DNA from: Deltaproteobacteria bacterium RIFOXYD12_FULL_56_24
GTDB taxonomy: Bacteria; Desulfobacterota; Desulfobulbia; Desulfobulbales; Desulfurivibrionaceae
Reading direction: 5' to 3'
NCBI GenBank assembly: GCA_001799285.1
Contig: MGTD01000041.1
Span: 520-60,006 of the forward strand
DNA length: 59,487 nt
Each line of letters starts with the position of its first letter. Within the stretch, counting starts at the first letter, position 1. This document shows, piece by piece, positions 11,268 to 50,006 of the stretch. Position numbers and translations under genes: made by a program. Under the pieces are notes generated by a model, which saw only the letters and a program-made list of their open reading frames with translations, was not told the origin of the DNA and did not search any database.

Positions 11268-11397
11268 TAACAGGGGCAAGTATTTTTTGGGGGGTCAGCG
11301 GCGGACCACGGAGTGGTTATGGGAGGCAAAGCCAGCGAATTGTTTTACCTCTCACAGCCCTTCACTTCGGGCCTTACGATGTCAACCGGCATGTCCG

Positions 11398-11506
11398 TAA
11401 GCGGTCACAGGGCACCACATCTTGCGACGATCGGTCCGGCTCACGTACAAAAGTACGCATCGCCGTCCCGCTTGCCGCAACCTGCACCACCCTGTGGCCG
11501 CTTTTA
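11398..11506 (-). repeat. Structured repeat family A, copy 1
   Basis: Outer arms TAAGCGGTCACAGGG and CCCTGTGGCCGCTTTTA pair. The inner core has CTTGCG, CGATCGGTCCGGC, a small hairpin CGTAC-AAAA-GTACG, then TTGCCGCAA. A C element (11505-11558) and an E tail ATTCCGTGGTTATTTGAC (11558-11575) follow directly, giving an A-C-E composite in the spacer downstream of xthA. Confidence 0.85.
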
Positions 11507-13370: not shown

Positions 13371-14357
13371 ATGCAAGGAAACATCAAGGAGAAGGTGGGG
13401 ATGCTGTTCGTCTCCCTCATATGCGCCATCATGTTGAGCCCGGCCTGGGCTCTGGCCAGCGAAGTGGTTGCCATGGATCAGATTCCCGCCGCCGGTGATC
13501 CGGGCTGGTGGAAGTGGCCGGTTATTCTCCTCTTCGTCACCTTTGTCATGGGCATCATCGCGGTGCTTGGCGGGGTGGGCGGCGGGGTGCTGTTCGTGCC
13601 CATCATCGGCGGGTTTTTTCCGTTTCACCTTGATTTTGTTCGCGGCGCCGGTCTGCTCGTTGCCCTGTGCGGCGCCCTGGCCGCGGGCCCCGGCCTGCTG
13701 AAGGCCAACCTCGCCAGCCTGCGTCTGGCCATGCCGGTGGCGCTCATCGCCTCCACCATGGCCATTGTCGGCGCCATGGTCGGCCTGGCCCTGCCCACCC
13801 ATATTGTCCAGCTTGCCCTGGGCGGCACCATCCTCGGCATCGTGGCCATCATGCTCTCCGCCAAGAAGTCAACGGTCCCCCATGTCCCTCATGCGGATGC
13901 GCTTTCTTCCGCCCTGCGGATTACCGGGGTTTTTTATGAGCCGACCACCAAGGAAGAGATCAACTGGAAGATCCATCGCACCATCCCCGGCCTGCTGACC
14001 TTTATCATCATCGGCTTCATGGCCGGGATGTTCGGTCTGGGCGCTGGTTGGGCCAACGTGCCGGTGCTGAACCTGATGATGGGCGCGCCGCTCAAGATCA
14101 GCGTGGCCACCTCCAAGTTTTTGCTCTCCATCACCGACACCTCCGCCGCCTGGATTTACCTGAACAAGGGCTGTGTGATCCCCATGATGGTGGTGCCGTC
14201 GCTCATCGGCATCATGCTGGGTTCCTTCGTCGGGGTCCGCTTGCTCAAGGTGGCCAAGCCGACCTTTATCCGCTGGATGGTTATCGTAATTCTTCTCTTT
14301 GCCGGTCTGAAGGCGGTGCAAAAGGGCTTGAGCACCATGGGTTACAACCTGTTCTAG
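13371..14357 (+). CDS. TSUP family (TauE/SafE) membrane exporter
   Basis: A 328-residue protein with a cleavable-looking N-terminal signal and about eight membrane segments. Two family half-repeats each carry a glycine-rich motif: GVGGGVLFVPIIGGFF early and GLGAGWANVPVLNLMM later. TSUP proteins export or import sulfur oxyanions and organosulfonates such as sulfite or sulfoacetate. GAGGAAACAAGG precedes the ATG. It is followed by DUF1634, a known partner in many genomes, with a C repeat in the 116-nt gap. Confidence 0.88.
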   Translation: MQGNIKEKVGMLFVSLICAIMLSPAWALASEVVAMDQIPAAGDPGWWKWPVILLFVTFVMGIIAVLGGVGGGVLFVPIIGGFFPFHLDFVRGAGLLVALCGALAAGPGLLKANLASLRLAMPVALIASTMAIVGAMVGLALPTHIVQLALGGTILGIVAIMLSAKKSTVPHVPHADALSSALRITGVFYEPTTKEEINWKIHRTIPGLLTFIIIGFMAGMFGLGAGWANVPVLNLMMGAPLKISVATSKFLLSITDTSAAWIYLNKGCVIPMMVVPSLIGIMLGSFVGVRLLKVAKPTFIRWMVIVILLFAGLKAVQKGLSTMGYNLF

Positions 14358-14391
14358 GCGCCTAAGCGATAACGGTCTTAAGGGAACGATC

Positions 14392-14445
14392 TACACCCAG
14401 AGGGCATAAGTTTCGTTTGATCAGACAAGCTGCTCAACTCAGCTA
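14392..14445 (+). repeat. 54-bp repeat family C, copy 2
   Basis: TACACCCAGAGGGCATAAG, TTTCGTTTGATCAG-ACAAG-CTGCTCAA, ACTCAGCTA: full length, with one mismatch in the main stem. It sits between the TSUP and DUF1634 genes. Confidence 0.85.
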
Positions 14446-14473
14446 AATAGTTTATTTTACGGAGGATTGTATC

Positions 14474-14917
14474 ATGACACAACATACTACCCAAGCAACC
14501 GAGGAACAGGTGCAGTACGCCGCCATTCTTGAAAAAGGCATGTACTTCGGCCTGGCCCTCATGGTGATCACCTTTGCCCTGTATGTGCTGGGCATCATGC
14601 CGTCGATCGTGCCGCTGAGCGAAATCTCCATCTACTGGAGCATGCCGGTGCATGACTATCTGGTGGCGATCAACACCAATTTTATCCATGGGGAACACCT
14701 GCCCACCGGCTGGTCCTGGTTGAAGCTCATCGGCTATGGCGATTTCCTGAACTTCGTGCCGGTGACCATCCTTTCCGGGGTGACCATTCTCTGCTACATG
14801 GTCATTACCCCTGGGCTGTTTCGCCGGGGCGACAAGGCCATGGCGATCATGGCCGTGGCCGAGGTGCTGATTCTGACTCTGGCGGCGAGTGGCCTGCTTT
14901 CTGTCGGCGCGCATTGA
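14474..14917 (+). CDS. DUF1634 domain membrane protein
   Basis: A 147-residue protein with three clear membrane segments (ILEKGMYFGLALMVITFALY, FVPVTILSGVTILCYMVI, AIMAVAEVLILTLAASGLL). DUF1634 proteins typically accompany TauE/SafE exporters and may be an accessory subunit. A GGAGG site precedes the ATG. It probably shares a transcript with the TSUP gene unless the C repeat intervenes as a terminator. Confidence 0.85.
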   Translation: MTQHTTQATEEQVQYAAILEKGMYFGLALMVITFALYVLGIMPSIVPLSEISIYWSMPVHDYLVAINTNFIHGEHLPTGWSWLKLIGYGDFLNFVPVTILSGVTILCYMVITPGLFRRGDKAMAIMAVAEVLILTLAASGLLSVGAH

Positions 14918-15035: not shown

Positions 15036-15422
15036 TCAGGCCCCTGGGGGTCGGCTTTCCCGGTGGGCGATGGCGATTTTTTCCACCAGGGCCTCCAGGT
15101 CGATGGGTTTGAGGCAGTAGTCGCTGGCTCCGCATTCCAGGCCGTGCAGCCCGGTTTCCATGCTGGCGTGACCGGTCAGCAGAATGACGGGCAGGGTCGG
15201 CCATTTCTCTTTGATCTCCCGCAGGCAGTCCATGCCGTCCCGGTCCGGGAGCATTACATCCAGGACCACCACCTCGGGCCAGCCCGAGGCGATAATCGCC
15301 AGCCCCGCAGCGCAGGTGAGGGCGGTTTTTGCCGAGTGGCCCCGCCGGATTAATCGTTTCCCGGTTGTTTCCACGAAATCAATTTCATCGTCAATAAGCA
15401 GGATCTTGAGTGGCTGTGGCAT
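15036..15422 (-). CDS. Single-domain response regulator (receiver)
   Basis: A 128-residue CheY-like receiver: acidic pair IDDEIDF, phospho-aspartate in VVLDVMLPD, switch threonine in LTGHASM and the conserved lysine in CLKPIDL. There is no output domain. A GGAGGG site lies inside the end of the upstream pyruvate-phosphate-dikinase-like gene, 1 nt away, so translation is coupled. It may modulate or receive phosphate within that partnership. Confidence 0.9.
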   Translation of the reverse strand: MPQPLKILLIDDEIDFVETTGKRLIRRGHSAKTALTCAAGLAIIASGWPEVVVLDVMLPDRDGMDCLREIKEKWPTLPVILLTGHASMETGLHGLECGASDYCLKPIDLEALVEKIAIAHRESRPPGA

Positions 15423-15423
15423 G

Positions 15424-18012
15424 TCATCCCTCCGTTGCTGGGGTGTCGAGCAGGGTGTGCAGGTCGGCCATGATTTTTTGCTGGTAGTTTGCGGCCATGC
15501 CCTGGTCCGCCATGACCATGTCGATCTGGCGGGTATGGATCAGCAGATAGCCGAGAATCCTTAATCGTTCCAGCAGATAGGGGGGGGGCTTTTTTTCGAT
15601 CCGGGCCGTCATGGCGTCCACCTTCTGTTCCACCCGGAAGCCGAATTCGCTTAAGATCTCGCTGATCAGTTGGATGCGCAGCAGGCGGCGGTTCTGGTCC
15701 GCAGCTCCTCCCTTGAACTGGAAGCTCACATAGTTTTCCGTAAGAAACTCCCCCAGATTCGCCTCAACCAGGGCAAAATGATAGCCGAGTCGGACGCTCA
15801 GGTTGCAGAAGTTTTTTGAGATGAGAAAGTAGTTTTTGGCGGCCATGGCCGAGCGCACCGCCGGGTCGAGATTGGGGTTTCGCGTGGACTGGAAGATGAT
15901 GGAGCCGAAGCCGCCCAGGCTGACCGGCGGCGGCCCACCCCAGGGAAAGGCGGTCATTCCCTGCCAGATGGCCTGCATGGGCACGGAGGTGATATGGGCG
16001 AGATCGACATAGCGGCTTTCCGGGTCGAAATCCGGGGTAAAGCCGTCGTCGAGATCGATCACCCACCACTGGGCCGGAGAATTTTCCACCACCAGTTGCT
16101 TGGCCGCCTTGTCGTTGAAACCGTACCGCTCGCCAAAGGTGAACATCTCCACCACCGCCTTTTCGTGGCAGAAGCGGGTGAGATCGTGCAGGGTTTTGCA
16201 GGTGTCGGCCCGGAAAAACGGGGAGGCCGGGTCGGTCAGGTTGAGCGGGGTGATGTGGGCCAGGGCCTCGGTGAGGATCTTGTATACCGGACTGCCGGCC
16301 ATGAGATTGGGTTTGGGCGCGGCCAGGGCCAGGAGAGATTCCACCCGGCCGTCATAGACCTTGCCCGCGGTGGCATCCACCGTGACCAGGCTGTCGTTGG
16401 CAAGGGCTGTCAAGGCCCCGGCCAAGCCGAATATCGCCGGGATCCTGAATTCGCGGGCCACGGTGGCAAGGTGGGCTGCGGGCTGGCCGGTTTCGCTGAC
16501 CACGGCTACGGCCCGGTTGAGGAGGCTGGCCCAGTCCGGATACGGCGTCTCGATGACCAGCACCGCGCCCTTGGGAAAGCGCAAGAGGTCGAGGCTGGAG
16601 CGCACCGTGTACACCGGGCCGCAGCCTACCCCCTGGCTGGCGCTCATCCCTCCGGCCAGAAGCTGAATGGGCAGCGCATCCCCGCCGACATCGTGCTTGC
16701 CGGTGTCCTGGTCCTCTCCAGCGGTCGAGAGACCAAGGGGCCGGGATTGCAGAATGTAGAGCAGGCCGGCACGGTCAAAAGACCATTCGATATCCTGGGG
16801 GGCGCCGAAATGTTTTTCCAGCCGTACTCCGGCGGCGGCCAGCTCGGCAGCCTGGGCCTCGCTTAAGGTCGCCTGGGATTTCGGGGTTGGCTGCCGGTCG
16901 AGAATCGAGTGGGGTGCAGTCCGGCTGACCAGTAACTGCTCGGTGGTCCCGCTGCCGTCCACCACTGTGGCGGCCAGGCCCGGTGCCGCCTGGATAATGA
17001 CAAAAGGGCTGCGCGGGTCATCCGGCGCCCGGGAATAGAGTACCCCGCTTATGGCCGCATCCACCATGCGCAGGCAGCCGACGCACATCTGGACGTCCTG
17101 GTGCCGGTAGCCCCGTTGCTGCCGGTAGACAATGGCCTGGCTTTTGTACTTGCCGGCGACGATCTCTTTGTAGGTCTGGGTGACAAATTCGCGGCTGACA
17201 TTGAGTTGGGTCCGGTACTGGCCGGCAAAGGAAACATTGCTGCTGTCCTCGCCCAGGGCACTGGAGCGCAGGGCGACCAGCAGTTCTTCGGCGTTGGGGC
17301 CGGCGGCGAGCTGCTGGTGGTGGGTCAGGATCGCCTCTTCCAGTTCCTTGGGCAGGAGGGCTTTGCTGATCAGGCCTTGAATTCCCGCGCTGACCGTGTA
17401 GAGCTCTTCCAGGTTGTCAAGATCCAACCCTTTCAGGCGGCGGTTGATCTCAATCTGCAGATTGTTAGCCTCGATAAATTGTCGAGCCGCTGTTGCCGTA
17501 ATGACAAAACCATCCGGGGTTCTCAGGCCGACCCGGTTTCGAACCTCGCCCAGATTGGCCATCTTTTCCCCCACCTGATCCACGGTGTTCGCGTTCACCT
17601 CCGCCATGGGGAGGATGAATGCTCCTTCCGTGCCGGGGGAACGGCTGGCGATGACCTGTTCGAGCTGTCTGGTAATGGCCCGGAATGGGTGGTCCAATTC
17701 GGTATAGCGGCCATCGGCCAGTCTGGTCAGGTGCTGAATCATTTTATAGATATTGACGGAAAGCGCGGTGCAGTTGCCCCGGACAAAAGTCATGCCAAAG
17801 GGGTGGCCTGTGGTGAGGGCCTGTTCCATTTCGGCCATCAGCTCCAGGGCGTTGTTGTTGGCGGTGAGCAGGGCGCGGAACTCTTTGTAATGACTGCGGA
17901 AGGCGGCCTGCAATTCGGCGGGCGTCAGCCTGGGTTTGCCATGGAAAAACGAGGTCAGTCGATCAAGAAAGAAGGTCATGGCATGGTCGCCTGAGTTTAT
18001 GCTAGTGTTCAT
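15424..18012 (-). CDS. PEP/pyruvate-binding (PPDK-like) phosphohistidine protein with novel C-terminus
   Basis: An 862-residue protein. Residues about 150-445 form an ATP-grasp PPDK_N domain with VALRSSALGEDSSNVSFAGQ and QDIEWSFDRAGLLYILQSRP. Residues about 470-575 are the swivelling domain with GQPAAHLATVAREFRIPAIF, retaining the histidine that is phosphorylated. The PEP/pyruvate TIM barrel of true PPDK or PEP synthase is absent. Instead a C-terminal region of about 280 residues of unrecognised type follows (FGERYGFNDKAA, GGFGSIIFQSTRNPN). A further N-terminal region (1-150) is helical. The alternative start is ATG 17979. The downstream receiver gene is coupled. Confidence 0.8.
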   Translation of the reverse strand: MNTSINSGDHAMTFFLDRLTSFFHGKPRLTPAELQAAFRSHYKEFRALLTANNNALELMAEMEQALTTGHPFGMTFVRGNCTALSVNIYKMIQHLTRLADGRYTELDHPFRAITRQLEQVIASRSPGTEGAFILPMAEVNANTVDQVGEKMANLGEVRNRVGLRTPDGFVITATAARQFIEANNLQIEINRRLKGLDLDNLEELYTVSAGIQGLISKALLPKELEEAILTHHQQLAAGPNAEELLVALRSSALGEDSSNVSFAGQYRTQLNVSREFVTQTYKEIVAGKYKSQAIVYRQQRGYRHQDVQMCVGCLRMVDAAISGVLYSRAPDDPRSPFVIIQAAPGLAATVVDGSGTTEQLLVSRTAPHSILDRQPTPKSQATLSEAQAAELAAAGVRLEKHFGAPQDIEWSFDRAGLLYILQSRPLGLSTAGEDQDTGKHDVGGDALPIQLLAGGMSASQGVGCGPVYTVRSSLDLLRFPKGAVLVIETPYPDWASLLNRAVAVVSETGQPAAHLATVAREFRIPAIFGLAGALTALANDSLVTVDATAGKVYDGRVESLLALAAPKPNLMAGSPVYKILTEALAHITPLNLTDPASPFFRADTCKTLHDLTRFCHEKAVVEMFTFGERYGFNDKAAKQLVVENSPAQWWVIDLDDGFTPDFDPESRYVDLAHITSVPMQAIWQGMTAFPWGGPPPVSLGGFGSIIFQSTRNPNLDPAVRSAMAAKNYFLISKNFCNLSVRLGYHFALVEANLGEFLTENYVSFQFKGGAADQNRRLLRIQLISEILSEFGFRVEQKVDAMTARIEKKPPPYLLERLRILGYLLIHTRQIDMVMADQGMAANYQQKIMADLHTLLDTPATEG

Positions 18013-18122: not shown

Positions 18123-18160
18123 CCGCTTGTTCCGGGCGGCGAACCACCCGGAACAAGCGG
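18123..18160 (-). terminator. Strong hairpin with T-run, minus strand
   Basis: CCGCTTGTTCCGGG (18123-18136) and CCCGGAACAAGCGG (18147-18160) form 14 perfect pairs. On the minus strand ATTTTTG follows. It probably ends transcription downstream of the TSUP and membrane genes. The right arm overlaps the edge of A copy 2. Confidence 0.7.
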
Positions 18161-18260
18161 TCACAGGGTGCCGCAGGTTGCGGCAAGCGGGACGGCGATG
18201 CGTACTTTTGTACGTGAGCCGGACCGATCGCCGCAAGATGTGGTGCCCTGTGATCGCTTA
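18155..18260 (+). repeat. Structured repeat family A, copy 2
   Basis: AAGCGGTCACAGGGTGCCGC at one end and GTGCCCTGTGATCGCTTA at the other, with inner hairpin CGTAC-TTTT-GTACG. It starts 3 nt beyond the stop codon of the minus-strand membrane gene. Confidence 0.85.
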
Positions 18261-18263
18261 CGT

Positions 18264-18962
18264 TTAATGTTCAAGCTTGAGGCCCCAGCCTTCAAACATG
18301 AAGAGGATGGAAAACCCGAACCACATGGTGTAGATCACATAGCCCACCAGGGAGGCGATCACCAGGACGGCCTTGTCCTTGATGCTTTGCGCCTCTATTC
18401 CGTAATAGTTGTAGGCCGGTTCCACGGTTTTGGTCCGTGCCTGATAGAAGATCTTTGACTCCTTGAATTTCTTCTGTTTGGTCAGGCTTTTTTCCATGGA
18501 TTTCAGGGCATTGTACCAATCAAACATTACCTGTTTTTCGGCGACGCCATACTTGGCGCTGACCGCCTCTCCGTCGTTGGCGAACATGGCGTCCGCGTCC
18601 GTGATAACCGCGGTGAGGATTGCGCCGAGATCGCCGCTGATCTTGATCTCCTTGTCTCCTGCTTGCACCACTGCCCCGGCCTGCTGCATCAGGTTGGTCA
18701 GCCGTGCGGCGGAGAGAGTCTCATCGGTTTTAATGTTCAGGGTAATGATATTTCCCTTGTAGGCCTCGGCTTTTTCCCTGATAGCAGGAACATAGTAGGA
18801 CGATTTCTTGGAAATGGAGTTGTACATGTTGTCCATGTAATCCAGCATATTCACCTTTTTGCCCTGACCGGGATAAAGCGGCGAGAGCAGCAGGGTGAAA
18901 ACGATCCAGAAGCCGACCATCATCACCAGGCCGCCACCGAATTCTTTTTTATTGGCAATCAT
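18264..18962 (-). CDS. Membrane protein of unknown function in the TSUP operon
   Basis: A 232-residue protein with an N-terminal membrane segment (GGLVMMVGFWIVFTLLLSPL), an approximately 160-residue hydrophilic domain with helices and conserved-looking lysines, and a C-terminal segment (AVLVIASLVGYVIYTMWFGF). The hydrophilic part probably faces the periplasm. No named family is recognised. An AAGGAGG site precedes the ATG, which overlaps the TSUP gene end by 4 nt, so it may be an accessory subunit of that exporter. Confidence 0.7.
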   Translation of the reverse strand: MIANKKEFGGGLVMMVGFWIVFTLLLSPLYPGQGKKVNMLDYMDNMYNSISKKSSYYVPAIREKAEAYKGNIITLNIKTDETLSAARLTNLMQQAGAVVQAGDKEIKISGDLGAILTAVITDADAMFANDGEAVSAKYGVAEKQVMFDWYNALKSMEKSLTKQKKFKESKIFYQARTKTVEPAYNYYGIEAQSIKDKAVLVIASLVGYVIYTMWFGFSILFMFEGWGLKLEH

Positions 18963-20272
18963 GAGTGTGCCTCCTTGGTGGTATGCGCATCACCCTCTCC
19001 TTTGAGGGTTTTGATATTGGTAAAAAAGATGTAGAAAACCCAGATAGCGAAGGTGATAAGCACCGCAAAGAAGATGTAGGTGCCCACAGTTTCGAGCAGC
19101 TTGCCGGTTTCTTTGGACATGGAGATTATATCCATGCTCGCCAGTTTCGAGGGCAGGGCAAAGACCCGGTTGATAAAGCCGGCGGAGGTGGCGATGGCGT
19201 AAAGCCCGCAAATGGTGACGCCGCTTACTACCTTGGTGATCAGGGAGCCGATCTGGATGCCGACCAGAGAGCCCAGGAGCATGCCCATGGCCAGGGTGTA
19301 GAAGATGAAGCCGTAGACTGCATACTGGCTCAAGCCCGCATAACCGGCGGTGAAGATGATCTGAAAGATGTCGGTACCCACGGTGGTGGCCGAGGAAACG
19401 CCCAGCACATAGACGAAGATGGGGAAGGTTAAAAAGCCGCCGCCCACGCCCATGATGGCTGCGGCCAGCCCGACGATGAAGCCGCTGAGCACCAGGAAGA
19501 GCCAGGAGATCCTGCGGCCACCCGGGGTAACGCCTTCGTCAAACTGGATCATGGGGGGAAGGCTGACCCCCTGGACTTTCTGGGCCAGATTGGTCATGCC
19601 TGAGGTGTTGACTGCCGCAGTGCTGGAACCTGCCTTGGATGGGGCTTTCTTGCGGGTTTGGCGGAAGAAATCCATTAACGCGTAGGAGCAGAGAAAGCCC
19701 AGCATCAGAACATAGATGGTGGTGATGAAGGCGTCGCTCAGCACAGGGTTTTTGTCGTACAGGGTGCGGTTGACCCAGCCGCCGATGGTGGCGCCGCCGA
19801 TGGAGCCGAGCAGGAAAACGCCGGCCAGGGCCACGGAGACATTGCCAAGTTTGCGGTGCAGAACGCTGCCCATGATGGCCTTGGCAAAGATGTGGAACAG
19901 GTCGGTGCCCACCGCCAGGATGCCCTTAACCCCGACGCTCATCAGGGCCGGAGCGATGATGAAGCCGCCGCCCGCGCCGATGCAGCCGGTGATCAGGCCG
20001 GCGACGATGCCGACCCCGATGGAGGCGAAGAAGATGGTGGGGGTGTAGAAGGCCGGGGCATAGGCGTTTTTACCGCCGAGCATGCCGGGCAGCTGGCCGA
20101 TTACCTCATCGGCAAAGGCTATGCCGCCGATGAGGATGGGGATGAGCAGCAGGCCGAGAATGGCCAGCCGCCTGCGGTCCCGCAGGATGGTGTTTGAGAT
20201 GTCCATTTCCCATTTCGCGTGGGCGCGGGCGCCCGCCATCATGAAATGGTGCAATTGACTGAAAAACTTCAT
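18959..20272 (-). CDS. TSUP family (TauE/SafE) membrane exporter, larger type
   Basis: A 437-residue protein with a basic N-terminus and multiple membrane segments. Its two family motifs are GCIGAGGGFIIAPALMSVG and GVGGGFLTFPIFVYVLGVSS, both followed by TVGTD/AVGTD. A hydrophilic loop of about 50 residues separates the halves. ATG 20272 follows GGGAGGAG; an earlier in-frame ATG at 20353 reads through an A repeat and is rejected. Likely substrates are sulfur oxyanions. It is cotranscribed with the small membrane protein. Confidence 0.88.
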   Translation of the reverse strand: MKFFSQLHHFMMAGARAHAKWEMDISNTILRDRRRLAILGLLLIPILIGGIAFADEVIGQLPGMLGGKNAYAPAFYTPTIFFASIGVGIVAGLITGCIGAGGGFIIAPALMSVGVKGILAVGTDLFHIFAKAIMGSVLHRKLGNVSVALAGVFLLGSIGGATIGGWVNRTLYDKNPVLSDAFITTIYVLMLGFLCSYALMDFFRQTRKKAPSKAGSSTAAVNTSGMTNLAQKVQGVSLPPMIQFDEGVTPGGRRISWLFLVLSGFIVGLAAAIMGVGGGFLTFPIFVYVLGVSSATTVGTDIFQIIFTAGYAGLSQYAVYGFIFYTLAMGMLLGSLVGIQIGSLITKVVSGVTICGLYAIATSAGFINRVFALPSKLASMDIISMSKETGKLLETVGTYIFFAVLITFAIWVFYIFFTNIKTLKGEGDAHTTKEAHS

Positions 20273-20306
20273 AATTGTACTCCTCCCTTGTTGAATGATA
20301 AAAAAA

Positions 20307-20414
20307 GTAACTATCCAGCAGCACCCCATCTTGCGGCGATCGGCCCGGCTCACGTACTCGATGTACGCTTCGCCGTCCCGCTTACCGCAACCTGGGGCAC
20401 TGCTGAATAGTTAC
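20307..20414 (-). repeat. Structured repeat family A, copy 3 (GTAAC-type ends)
   Basis: Ends GTAACTATCCAGCAG and CTGCTGAATAGTTAC pair with one mismatch, around the usual A core with inner hairpin CGTAC-TCGA-TGTACG. The core is nearly the same as copies 1, 2, 4 and 5, but the outer arms are wholly different. Confidence 0.85.
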
Positions 20415-20508: not shown

Positions 20509-20880
20509 CTATGGACCGCAATCCTTGGCTGCTTCAAGTTTTTCCAGCAGGGTTTCAAATTCCACCGGCTTGAGCAGGTAGTCGAAGGCGCCGTTCTTGA
20601 GGCCCTCTTCTCCTTCGCTGGCCGAGGCGTGGCCGGTGAGGATCAGTACCCGGCTTGCGGGGCGGATTTTTTTTATCTCCTGCAGAACCTGGCCGCCGTC
20701 CATGTCCGGGAGACGCATATCCAGCAAAATCACGGGAAAGTCGCCGGCCGCGACCCGGGTTATGGCCGCGCCGCCGGTCAATACCCCTTCGCTGGCCCAG
20801 CCCCGCTTGCGCAAGCGGTGTACCAGGGTGTTGACAAAGTCTTCTTCATCATCAACAACCAAAATGGAAAATTCGCCCAT
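20509..20880 (-). CDS. Single-domain response regulator (receiver)
   Basis: A 123-residue receiver starting MGEFSILVVDDEEDF, with phospho-aspartate in ILLDMRLPDMDG, LTGHAS and LLKPVEF. ATG 20880 follows GGAG. The open frame extends upstream to 21063 through the end of the kinase gene, but that part is antisense-like filler. It directly follows the Cache histidine kinase and is its likely partner. Confidence 0.9.
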   Translation of the reverse strand: MGEFSILVVDDEEDFVNTLVHRLRKRGWASEGVLTGGAAITRVAAGDFPVILLDMRLPDMDGGQVLQEIKKIRPASRVLILTGHASASEGEEGLKNGAFDYLLKPVEFETLLEKLEAAKDCGP

Positions 20881-20902
20881 TTCTGTTCTCCGGCTTCTTT
20901 GT

Positions 20903-22585
20903 TTACCGGCCCGCGACCGGAAGGTTGACCCGGAAAACGCAGCCGCCCTGCCTGCCGTTGCGCACTTCGATGCTGCCTCCCAGCCGTTCCATAATGCTGT
21001 AGGAAATGGCCAGGCCGATCCCGGTGCCGCTTCCCGCTTTTTTGGTGGTGAAAAACGGTTCAAAGATCTTTTTTAAGACCTCTTCCGGCAATCCCGGCCC
21101 GCTGTCGGCAAATTCCACGGACAGCTGTCTGTTGTCGAGACTGGTGCTGATGGTGACCGAGCCGTCGTTGCCGATGGCGTCGAAGGCGTTGTTCAGAATG
21201 TTGAGAAAGACCTGCTGCACCTGGGTGGAGTCGGTGGTGATCTTCGGCAGGCTTTGCTCCAGATTGCGCCGGATGGTGATCCGGTGATTGTTCGCCTCCT
21301 TTTCCAGAAAAGAGACGGTTTCCTCTATCAGGGTGTTGACGTCGATTGCCGATTTCAAGCCCTCGGTGCTGCGGGAAAAGCCCAAAAGCCGATGGGTGAT
21401 GGTGCTGGCCCGCTTGACCTGAGTTTTGATCTTGGCAAAAGCGGCCCGGTATTCGTCGGTGTTTTTCAGTCGGTCCAGCTCTTCCTCGTTGAGCAGTTCA
21501 TCCAGCCAGCCCGCCTGATCGCCGATGATTTGCAGGGGGTTGTTGATTTCATGGGCCACATTGGCTGCCATTCTGCCGATCAGGGCCATCTTTTCCGAAT
21601 AGCGGATGCGGTCATAGAGCAGCATTCTTTGCTGATCCGCGCCTTCCACCTTGTTCATCATGGAGCGGACCAGGGTAGTGGAAACGGCAAGGATGAGCAG
21701 GGCGGCTCCGGCAATGATCAGGTGGTCGCGCTGCCGAGCCCGGTAAAAATCAGCAAGCGAGGTGGCGATGTCGGTTTTCAGCACCAGGGTCCAGGCGTTG
21801 TTTTTCATCCCGGTGGTGGCGTACAGGGCTTCTGGGGACCGGTGTATGGTCAGGCCGCCCCCCGTGGCGAGCAGACTCTTTTCTCCGGCGGGAAGAGCGG
21901 TGAGTCCCAACCGGCTTGGCGTCTGCAATTCGCCCTGCCGGTTGAGGATAAAGGCATCCCCGCCGGGTCCGACCTCGGCGCTGGCCAGCATGGCGTTGAA
22001 CAGCTCGGAGTTGATCGTGGCCCGAAGAACCCAGGAGCGGCTTGGGTCGGTAACCGCGACAATAAAATGGGGCACCCCCCGGTAGCCGGTGAATACATCG
22101 CTGATGTATCTGCCATTTTCGATGACCTCCGCGAACCAGCGGGCCTCGGCGTAATTTTTGTCCTTCAGGTTCTCGGCAAAGGGGCCGGTGTAGTTGCGGT
22201 GGCTGCCATCCCGGGCGATGAGGCCCAGATCGACGATGACGCCCTGGTGGTTCATGGCCTTGAAAATCTTTTCCAGATTGCCAGGGGTACTCAGCCAGGC
22301 AAAGTCATAGAGCTCCGCGTATCCGGCCAGGGTATTTTCCTGGTTGTCGAGGAAGAGATCAATGATTTCCCTGCGGCTGTTTGCCAGGCTGGTCAGCTCA
22401 ACGGTGGTTTTGTCCAGCCATGATTTCTGATAGAAATGTGAAGAGGTCCAGCTGATGAACAGGAGGGGAATGATGGCCATCAGAATGACCAGCAAAACAA
22501 AAAGCTGTTTCTGTCGCGCGTAATAAGATTCACGAGAGCGAACTTTCAGGGCGCTGCCGGGGATGGTGGCGGTGTACATCTTCAT
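20903..22585 (-). CDS. Cache-domain sensor histidine kinase
   Basis: About 560 residues. A membrane segment near residue 25-45 ([19 protein letters not shown]) is followed by a periplasmic double-Cache-type sensor (about 50-290) and a second membrane segment ([19 protein letters not shown]). HisKA carries H in [13 protein letters not shown]. HATPase_c carries [36 protein letters not shown] 22585 starts 2 nt after the Fis-type gene, so translation is probably coupled. It senses an extracytoplasmic small molecule, unknown here. Confidence 0.9.
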
Positions 22586-22587
22586 GG

Positions 22588-22884
22588 TTACTCGGTATAT
22601 CCCTGAAGAGGCGCGGCAGCGGAGGGGGCGAGATTTTCCAATTTTTTCAGCTTTCGCCACAGGGAAACCCTGTCTATGCCGAGAACCTGGGCGGCCCGTG
22701 ATTTGTTGCCCGCAACATGGAACAGTACCTTTTGCACATATTCCCGCTCCAGTTCCAGCAAGGTCGGGAATCTGCCTTCCGGCGGATACTCCTCAAGCAG
22801 GTCTGTCCCGGCAAGGGGGCGGATTTCAATGCTTTCGCCGCTGACGATGAAATGGCGGTTTATGGCTACGGTCTGTTTAGGCAT
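22588..22884 (-). CDS. Stand-alone Fis-type HTH protein
   Basis: A 98-residue protein whose C-terminal half is a Fis HTH: EYVQKVLFHVAGNKSRAAQV followed by LGIDRVSLWRKLKKL, as at the end of NtrC-type activators. It lacks AAA+ and receiver domains. A separate receiver gene lies upstream, so the pair looks like a split regulator. It may bind enhancer sites or compete with the activator encoded at 24920. Confidence 0.8.
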   Translation of the reverse strand: MPKQTVAINRHFIVSGESIEIRPLAGTDLLEEYPPEGRFPTLLELEREYVQKVLFHVAGNKSRAAQVLGIDRVSLWRKLKKLENLAPSAAAPLQGYTE

Positions 22885-26323: not shown

Positions 26324-26680
26324 ATGAAAATCCTGGCAACCCTGCAGAATAATGATATTGCGCCGCGTTTCGATCTGGCCACGGAGGTTCTTATCGCCAA
26401 AATAGTCCGGGGGAAAATTTCCGGGGAGCCGCGGACTGTCCTCCTGCCGGGGCCGGGGAGCGATGCGCTGTGCAGTCTGGTTATCCGGGAAGAAGCTTCC
26501 CTGGTGATCTGCGGCGGGATTGAGGAGGCGCATTTTCAGTATCTGGTCTGGAAAAAAATCGAGGTGATCGACAGGGTGATCGGCCCGGCACCCCAGGCTA
26601 TCGCCCTGGCCATTGCCAAACAATTGCGACCGGGGGAGATTGTCCGGCCTACTATCCGATTGGAAACCGAGAGGAGGTAA
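26324..26680 (+). CDS. NifX/NifB-like (dinitrogenase iron-molybdenum cofactor family) protein
   Basis: A 118-residue single domain beginning MKILATLQNNDIAPRFDLAT, with ASLVICGGIEEAHFQYLVWK, typical of the DINM family. Members bind iron-sulfur or FeMo-type clusters, but many stand-alone copies lie in other contexts. It follows the activator gene by 9 nt. Its stop TAA is also the first three bases of A copy 4, so the repeat may have supplied the stop. Confidence 0.8.
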   Translation: MKILATLQNNDIAPRFDLATEVLIAKIVRGKISGEPRTVLLPGPGSDALCSLVIREEASLVICGGIEEAHFQYLVWKKIEVIDRVIGPAPQAIALAIAKQLRPGEIVRPTIRLETERR

Positions 26681-26784
26681 GCGGTCACAGGGCACCACAT
26701 CTTGCGGCGATCGGTCCGGCTCACGTACAAAAGTACGTATCGCCATCCCGCTTGCCGCAACCTGCGGCACCCTGTGGCCGCTTG
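26678..26784 (-). repeat. Structured repeat family A, copy 4, plus E tail
   Basis: TAAGCGGTCACAGGG and CCCTGTGGCCGCTTG ends around the A core, with hairpin CGTAC-AAAA-GTACG. It is followed directly by the E tail TTCCGTGGTTATTTGAC (26785-26801) without a C element between, unlike copy 1. Confidence 0.85.
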
Positions 26785-26847
26785 TTCCGTGGTTATTTGA
26801 CTTTCGGGGGCCTACCCCGTGCTTGGTTATGAGAGGAGTGTACCGTC

Positions 26848-46358: not shown

Positions 46359-46465
46359 AAGCGGTCACAGGGTGCCGCAGGTTGCGGCAAGCGGGACGGC
46401 GATGCGTACATCGGGTACGTGAGCCGGACCGATCGCTGCAAGATGTGGTGCCCTGTGACCGCTTA
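46359..46465 (+). repeat. Structured repeat family A, copy 5
   Basis: AAGCGGTCACAGGGTGCCGC and GTGCCCTGTGACCGCTTA ends, inner hairpin CGTAC-ATCG-GGTACG. Full length. Confidence 0.85.
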
Positions 46466-46587
46466 CCATTTTCCGTCTGCTCTCCGGGCGGGGGGAATGA
46501 GCGGAACATCCTTGCCGCTTGTTTCCTTCTCCGCTATAATGCTGTTAATCTCCTACTCCGCAACCGATCACGGGGCAAACCCATAAA

Positions 46588-47987: not shown

Positions 47988-50006
47988 ATGCGTGCATTTC
48001 TGGAGAGATTTTCCCAGGCAACGGATTTACTGCCCCACGGTTACTGTCTGGTCTGGGATCCGTTGCTGCTCTGGCTACACGTCGGCGCGGATATTGTCAC
48101 TGGGCTTTCCTATTTTCTGATCGCGGCCGCACTTTTTTATCTGGTTAACAAGCGGCGGGATCTGCCTTATTTCTGGTTGTTTTATCTTTTTGCCGCTTTT
48201 ATTGCCGCCTGCGGCGTGACGCATTTTTTCGCGGTCTGGACCATCTATGTGTCTTCCTACTGGGCCGAGGGGATAGTCAAGGCGGTAACCGCCATCATCT
48301 CAATCAGCACGGCCCTGCTGCTGGTTCCTTTTCTGCCAAAAATCATGTTGTTGCCAAATCTTTCCCGCGCCCTGGAGGAAAACCGGCGTCTTAACCTAGA
48401 GCTGGAGAGCCAACTTGTTTTGTTGCGGAAATCAGAAGCGCGCTTGCGTTCCCTGGTCGAGGGAACGCAAGACGGCATTGTCATCGGCGATGAGCAGGGA
48501 AACATTATCTCGGTCAACCGGGCGGCGACCGAGATGTTCGGCTACGAAAAAGATGGGCTCAAAGGCCAGCCGCTGACCATTCTCATGCCGGAACGTTACC
48601 AGGCAAGGCATCTTGAGGGGCTGCACGGCTTTATTGCAACGGGCAACTCCCGGTATCTGGGCAAGCATCTGGCTTTTTGGGGCCGGCGACGGAACGGCGG
48701 TGAATTTCCCTTGGAATTGAATATCTCAAGCTGGGTTGCCGAGGGAAAGATTAATTTTGGCGGGATTATCAGAGATGTCAGCGAGCGAGTCCGGCTGGAA
48801 GAGGAAAAGACTAATCTGGAAAGGCAGCTCCGCACCACCCAGAAGATGGAGGCCATTGGCACTCTGGCCGGCGGCATAGCTCATGACTTCAACAATATCC
48901 TGGTGCCGATCATTTCCTATACCGAAATGGTTGCGGCCAAGGAGGCCGCGGGCAGCGAAAACCGGCAGAACCTGCAGGCGGTGCTGCAAGCCGCCCACCG
49001 GGCCAGGGACCTGGTCAAGCAGATCCTTGCCTTCAGCCGGGAGCGGGAGCATGAGGCAACCCCGGTCCAGATTGTGCCGCTGGTCAAGGAATCCCTCAAA
49101 CTGCTCCAGTCCTCGCTGCCCAGCACCATAGAGGTCGTCCAGCAGCTCGAGGGCGATGGGGTCACCATTCTTGCGGACCCGACCCAGATTCACCAGGTTG
49201 TCATGAATCTTTGCACCAATGCTTACTATGCCATGCGGGAACAGGGCGGGGTTCTGGAGGTGACTCTGGCCGAGGTGAAAATCGGCCCAGTTGATCCTGT
49301 CGTGCACGGCCTGGCCCCTGGCGCGTATGTGGTTTTGAGCGTGAGCGACACCGGGGCAGGCATGGACCAGGCGACGATGGAGCGAATTTTTGATCCGTAT
49401 TTCACCACAAGAAAATTTGGCGAGGGAACCGGACTCGGCCTTGCCGTGGTGCATGGAATCGTGAAAAAATACGGGGGCGACCTCAGGGTTTACAGCGAAC
49501 CGGGCCAGGGGGCGTCGTTTCAGGTTTATTTCCCCGTGGTTGGCAAAGCCGAGCAAGGCCCGGATTTTATTATCGGCACGCTTCTGGCGAAAGGCGATGA
49601 ACGGATTCTTCTGGTGGATGATGAGTTGCCTATTGCTTACTCTATGCAGAAGATGCTGGAATTTCATGGCTATCAGGTTGTTATGAAAACAAGCAGCGTT
49701 GAGGCCTTGGCGTCTTTCCGTCTAGCGCCCCGGGATTTTGATCTGGTCATCACCGACCAGACCATGCCGGAGCTTACCGGCGAGCAGCTGGTGCTGGCAT
49801 TGAAAAAAATAAGGCCGGAGATTCCGGTCATTCTCTGTACCGGGTTCAGCGCCACGATTGATGAAACAAAAGCCCGGGATTTGGGCATTGACGCCTTTTT
49901 CATGAAACCGGTGCTGATTAAAGAGATAACCGAAACAATCAGGAGCCTCCTCGATAAAAGCAAGGTTGCTGGGGTGGCCAAAAGGGAAAAGTCCACGGGT
50001 TCGTAA
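47988..50006 (+). CDS. Ethylene-receptor-like hybrid histidine kinase
   Basis: A 672-residue protein. Residues 20-125 are three membrane segments matching the plant ETR1 ethylene-binding domain: D35, Y42, C75 and H79 keep the ETR1 spacing (D25, Y32, C65, H69), with C and H in ACGVTHFFAVW as copper ligands; ETR1 P36 is A46 here. Then a PAS domain (about 150-265), HisKA with GGIAHDFNNILVPI, HATPase_c with TGAGMD and GEGTGLGLAVVHG, and a C-terminal receiver with VITDQTMPEL. First gene of a signalling operon. Confidence 0.9.
   Translation: MRAFLERFSQATDLLPHGYCLVWDPLLLWLHVGADIVTGLSYFLIAAALFYLVNKRRDLPYFWLFYLFAAFIAACGVTHFFAVWTIYVSSYWAEGIVKAVTAIISISTALLLVPFLPKIMLLPNLSRALEENRRLNLELESQLVLLRKSEARLRSLVEGTQDGIVIGDEQGNIISVNRAATEMFGYEKDGLKGQPLTILMPERYQARHLEGLHGFIATGNSRYLGKHLAFWGRRRNGGEFPLELNISSWVAEGKINFGGIIRDVSERVRLEEEKTNLERQLRTTQKMEAIGTLAGGIAHDFNNILVPIISYTEMVAAKEAAGSENRQNLQAVLQAAHRARDLVKQILAFSREREHEATPVQIVPLVKESLKLLQSSLPSTIEVVQQLEGDGVTILADPTQIHQVVMNLCTNAYYAMREQGGVLEVTLAEVKIGPVDPVVHGLAPGAYVVLSVSDTGAGMDQATMERIFDPYFTTRKFGEGTGLGLAVVHGIVKKYGGDLRVYSEPGQGASFQVYFPVVGKAEQGPDFIIGTLLAKGDERILLVDDELPIAYSMQKMLEFHGYQVVMKTSSVEALASFRLAPRDFDLVITDQTMPELTGEQLVLALKKIRPEIPVILCTGFSATIDETKARDLGIDAFFMKPVLIKEITETIRSLLDKSKVAGVAKREKSTGS

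Follow-up and report, generated by a model that had tools for sequence, protein, structure and literature searches.

A widespread PPDK-like protein family with a conserved C-terminal domain in place of the PEP/pyruvate barrel is linked to stand-alone receivers and TSUP permeases

The window analysed here is a stretch of 59,487 nucleotides from Deltaproteobacteria bacterium RIFOXYD12_FULL_56_24 (contig MGTD01000041.1). Its minus strand, on which all features of the locus lie, carries an open reading frame for an 862-amino-acid protein (15424..18012), in which Pfam recognises a PPDK_N and a PEP-utilizers domain and for which homologues suggest M12 (~17979) as the true start. As the initial annotation had stated, a receiver gene follows after a gap of only 1 nt (15036..15422; PF00072, 2.8e-24); it codes for a stand-alone receiver of 128 amino acids with residues D11, D12, D55, T83 and K105. 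Upstream of the PPDK-like gene are found the genes for a 232-amino-acid protein with two predicted membrane helices and no Pfam family (18264..18962), for a TauE/SafE (TSUP) permease (18959..20353; PF01925, 3.1e-33), to which the 232-amino-acid protein is assigned as a partner by synteny, for a second stand-alone receiver (20509..21063; PF00072, 5e-23), whose true start is probably at ~20880, and for a dCache histidine kinase with HisKA, HATPase_c and dCache_1 domains (20903..22660). An intrinsic terminator with a 17-bp stem and a T-run (18123..18160) separates the permease pair from the PPDK-like gene, and a terminator-like hairpin sequence is present in the same gap of several relatives. With this strong terminator upstream of the PPDK-like gene, the gene and that of the receiver after it are probably transcribed as a unit of their own, separate from the kinase and permease genes, even though the synteny of all of these is kept.

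Three parts of the PPDK-like protein precede its C-terminal domain. The N-terminal helical region (residues 30-128; 17629..17925) has no Pfam match and is the least conserved part of the family, with a value of 0.45 in an alignment of 117 non-identical members, on which the conservation figures for this protein are based. We considered whether these helices could be an HPt domain and rejected this, as they lack a Pfam match and H94 is found in only 41/117 members. The ATP-grasp domain (residues 133-427; 16732..17616; PF01326, 6e-76) and the phospho-His swivel domain (residues 448-562; 16327..16671; PF00391 (PEP-utilizers), 1.6e-16) match the corresponding domains of PEP synthase with 100% and 99.8%, respectively, when hhalign profiles of the 117 family members and of 14 PEP synthases are compared. 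The initial annotation had described the signature residues of both domains as intact and had placed the phospho-His in GQPAAHLATVARE, and the family alignment bears this out: the motif is there, with its His at residue 514 (codon 16471..16473), and a His occupies this position in 114/117 members. The ATP-grasp residues K150, R249, E255, D256, D407, E409, Q422 and R424 are present in the window protein and in 96-100% of the members; R249, R424, R520 and E521 are the same in all members, and conservation is 96-99% at K150, E255, D256, D407, E409 and Q422. Judged by these residues, the family is not degenerate, and the window protein would be an active dikinase. In three members (L057:3890-6637, L115:2229 onward and L128:8042 onward) the position of His514 is taken by Arg or Gln and the remaining domain is kept; these proteins are possible pseudo-enzymes.

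The remaining C-terminal domain (residues 563-862; 15427..16326) could not be assigned to any known family. Even at E=10, no Pfam or PDB relative was found for these residues, the single PDB hit, at 0.12, being a chance match, and in a Pfam scan of the whole protein PEP-utilizers_C was absent, with one sub-threshold chance match only past residue 550. With the same Pfam library, the true PEP synthase encoded in the same genome gave PEP-utilizers_C at 7.9e-57. In a profile comparison of the family C-terminus with the PEP-synthase barrel, hhalign returned 0.1%, whereas the ATP-grasp and swivel domains served as positive controls. A comparison of the C-terminal profile with the RPH-like substrate domain also gave 0.1%, the template in this case being a single sequence. 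The initial annotation had claimed that the barrel is missing and that about 280 residues of unrecognised sequence stand in its place, and had suggested fold and profile searches of this part. The sequence comparisons confirm that the PEP/pyruvate barrel is absent and that the protein is not a PEP synthase, and about 290 residues are without a Pfam or PDB family; none of the searches gave a barrel match. Foldseek returned nothing at E<0.001 with an AlphaFold model of the C-terminus whose mean pLDDT was 53, which, like the value of 52.7 for the full protein, is too poor for reading. The domain is nevertheless conserved: H609, D610, H616, G769, R779 and D831 are invariant in the family, R613, R741, H745, D799, R828 and Q829 are each kept in ~95% or more of the 117 members, and its mean conservation of 0.55 equals that of the ATP-grasp domain (0.55). 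This is how a domain that binds a ligand or carries out catalysis is expected to look.

With PEP synthase and PPDK the window protein shares an ATP-grasp domain followed by a phospho-His swivel domain, at ~30% identity, and PEP synthase matches to it are confined to residues 128-590. In contrast to these enzymes, it lacks the PEP/pyruvate barrel and has an extra N-terminal helical region, and the Thr that is found two residues before the His in PEP synthase and PPDK is an Ala in the window protein and a Thr in only 41/117 members. The NCBIfam models for PEP synthase and RPH remained far below their cut-offs (for the RPH model NF041857, 170 bits versus a cut-off of 999). In dikinases, the His is phosphorylated by ATP, and the phosphate travels on the swivel domain to an acceptor domain (PMC4844700, PMC12167813). 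Acceptor-domain swaps have precedents in RPH (PMC4844700) and HpeHI (PMC12167813), and in RPH and the two-component dikinases HpeHI, CreHI and PpsAB the dikinase chemistry is re-used with another acceptor domain (PMC4844700, PMC12167813), as we propose for the PPDK-like family. The domain order is different from that of RPH, in which the ATP-grasp domain is followed by the substrate domain and the His domain is the last one, whereas it is central in the window protein.

The C-terminal domain was found in 107/297 sampled genomes of the phylum, and the full PPDK-like protein in 125/179 sampled genomes of a family that we call Desulfovibrionaceae-like, a label inferred from flavodoxin matches. 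The protein is also encoded in one record labelled Nitrospirae (L024). Among the matches listed there are plasmid records, in which the alignment is limited to the ATP-grasp and swivel parts and most of which are annotated as PEP synthase. The source genome has four copies, namely the one in the window and three tandem paralogues on another contig (C63; L074:127-10000), where they are accompanied by a receiver and a histidine kinase, without a TauE permease. A 1,838-amino-acid reading frame at L096 was considered as a possible fusion and rejected, because a histidine kinase is encoded on the opposite strand within this frame. PADLOC gave no defence link for the PPDK-like protein.

In close relatives, the gene order is kinase, receiver, TauE permease, 232-amino-acid membrane protein, PPDK-like protein and receiver; in wider relatives the same parts are rearranged, and there are often between one and three stand-alone receivers. 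For the 75 loci with at least 4 kb of sequence on both sides, a stand-alone receiver is encoded within 4 kb at 59, a kinase at 52 and a TauE permease at 50. When only one locus was counted for each of 48 clusters formed at 60% identity, the same 4-kb neighbourhood contained a receiver in 38/48, a kinase in 35/48, a TauE permease in 27/48 and any two-component gene in 44/48. As a control, 20 arbitrary 20-kb regions (400 kb) from the same genomes were searched in the same way and contained no stand-alone receiver, no TauE permease and two kinases; from the absence of receivers, a Poisson estimate places the upper limit for a chance receiver at such a distance at ~6%. The neighbouring receivers keep D11, D12, D55 and K105 in 69/69 cases, and, depending on the lineage, they are encoded upstream or downstream of the PPDK-like gene, in most cases no more than 45 nt away. 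The association with receivers, and with it the two-component linkage, thus holds family-wide, although some members have no neighbouring receiver or permease. A membrane-bound sigma-54 activator takes the place of the receiver as the immediate partner in some Desulfovibrionaceae-like genomes; at L111-L114, L120, L122 and L124, the PPDK-like gene often follows such an activator and is divergent from the TauE permease gene, which is in turn followed by a gene for a DUF4881 lipoprotein at several of these loci.

A similar gene cluster has been described in Desulfovibrio. According to Korte 2014 (PMC4001038), this poorly annotated 'nitrate cluster' encodes the TauE-like permease DVU0251, a hypothetical protein, a PtxB-like protein and a kinase, together with DVU0247, a receiver of a single domain, and the PPDK-like DVU0246, for which the annotation given there names only ATP-grasp and mobile domains. 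As at the window locus, a TauE permease, a small hypothetical protein, a histidine kinase, a stand-alone receiver and a PPDK-like protein are encoded together (DVU0251-DVU0245 and Dde_0597-0605); in contrast to the window locus, the cluster also includes genes for a PtxB-like periplasmic protein and a phosphatase, and DVU0246 is ~744 codons long (PMC4001038). By annotation and gene order, DVU0246 likely belongs to the PPDK-like family; a near-identical copy of the D. vulgaris flavodoxin was not found among 288 family genomes. The same study reports that transposon mutants in DVU0246, DVU0247, DVU0250 and DVU0251 grew in 100 mM nitrate as they did without nitrate, that the PPDK-like gene of D. 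vulgaris is dispensable on lactate-sulfate and its loss mimics the loss of the permease, and that its authors propose a non-specific entry of nitrate via a leaky thiosulfate transporter (PMC4001038). As dissimilar genes give one phenotype, the receiver and the PPDK-like protein seem to be needed for the function or production of the permease, with polar insertion effects a possible contribution in the mutants as reported there. A literature search for the PPDK-like family under signalling terms returned nothing beyond this study (PMC4001038).

We propose, with a probability of roughly 0.5, that the window protein is an active dikinase, a member of the PPDK/PEP-synthase superfamily whose acceptor domain is new, and that it belongs to a two-component module by which an anion permease is enabled. 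The ATP bound in the ATP-grasp domain would phosphorylate H514, with AMP and Pi as the expected products, and the swivel domain would then take the phosphate to an acceptor that is held by the C-terminal domain and is other than barrel-bound pyruvate. The module would comprise a dCache histidine kinase and stand-alone receivers that have no DNA-binding domain, frequently joined by a TSUP anion permease. We infer that a receiver gates the enzyme, most likely by protein contact, and that the permease depends on the enzyme's product for its expression or activity. The initial annotation had left open whether phosphate moves to or from the receiver or onto some other acceptor. Its premises (no barrel, intact phosphotransfer residues and a recurrent link to active-type receivers) hold, and the second of its alternatives fits best, because the C-terminal domain is as well conserved as the catalytic domain and has invariant polar residues of its own.

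The first of these alternatives, a direct phosphorelay in which the H514 phosphate is passed to, or taken from, Asp55 of the coupled receiver, would make the protein an unusual phospho-His donor or sink. Such a relay is favoured by the tight coupling, throughout the family, to active-type receivers encoded on the same strand, and most of the neighbouring receivers have no output domain, so that their partner must be a protein. However, the conserved C-terminal domain, which has invariant residues of its own, points to a distinct acceptor site, the His is kept in members without neighbouring receivers, most loci already have an ordinary histidine kinase, and in known dikinases the His delivers phosphate to a bound small molecule (PMC4844700, PMC12167813). 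We therefore consider a relay unlikely. Just as doubtful is the corollary that an ATP-grasp dikinase exchanging phospho-His phosphate with stand-alone receivers would be a phosphate source or sink for two-component signalling with no relation to histidine kinases or HPt proteins, through which the energy state of the cell (ATP/AMP) would be coupled to the control of an anion permease; should phosphate reach the receiver, two-component signalling would have a new point of entry.

It is also conceivable, and to us improbable to a similar degree, that the protein is a metabolic kinase acting on a small molecule, which the TSUP permease might import, and that the role of the two-component genes is limited to the control of expression. 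This would agree with the small-molecule substrates of characterised relatives with swapped acceptor domains (PMC4844700, PMC12167813), with the permease found within 4 kb in 27/48 clusters and with the Arg/His-rich invariant set of the C-terminal domain. Yet most of the neighbouring receivers are single-domain proteins that cannot themselves bind DNA, many loci, including that of the three C63 paralogues, have a kinase and a receiver and no permease, and the D. vulgaris gene, which is dispensable on lactate-sulfate, gives a phenotype like that of permease loss when it is lost (PMC4001038). A catalytically dead scaffold or sensor is very unlikely; the loss of the His in three paralogues would be consistent with it, but the His and the ATP-grasp catalytic residues are kept in 114/117 members. 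Finally, a PEP synthase whose barrel has diverged beyond recognition would account for the similar length and domain order (ATP-grasp, His, C-terminal domain) but is largely refuted by the profile-profile value of 0.1% for the barrel, against 100% and 99.8% for the controls, and by the true PEP synthase encoded elsewhere in the same genome.

The dikinase with a putative new acceptor domain that we prefer would thus stand for a large and conserved family that is associated with two-component genes and apparently uncharacterised. Its members are easily annotated as PEP synthase from their first two domains, and the family appears to act in signalling rather than in carbon metabolism. Two questions would become testable: how many 'PEP synthases' of sulfur bacteria are something else, and why Desulfovibrio shows one and the same nitrate resistance whether it loses the PPDK-like protein, the receiver or TauE, a matter of relevance to the nitrate treatment of oil-field souring.

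Some further elements of the window were observed. A strongly palindromic dispersed repeat of 118 bp is located at 18142-18262 (fold z of the region, -8.7); it has no Rfam match and looks like a MITE or REP-type element inserted between the gene for the 232-amino-acid protein and the terminator. Further copies lie at ~11396-11503, 20321-20400 (partial), 26677-26794 and 46359-46466, and at least ~39 other copies with 94-100% identity were scored in the genome, with more candidates beyond these. At 13371-14917, the opposite strand encodes a second TauE/SafE permease and a hydrophobic protein of 147 amino acids; their genes converge with the PPDK-like unit, and the arrangement is kept in close relatives. 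At 47988-50006, next to a GGDEF-EAL-receiver protein, a hybrid histidine kinase is encoded whose N-terminal domain is of the ethylene-receptor type (PF25487).
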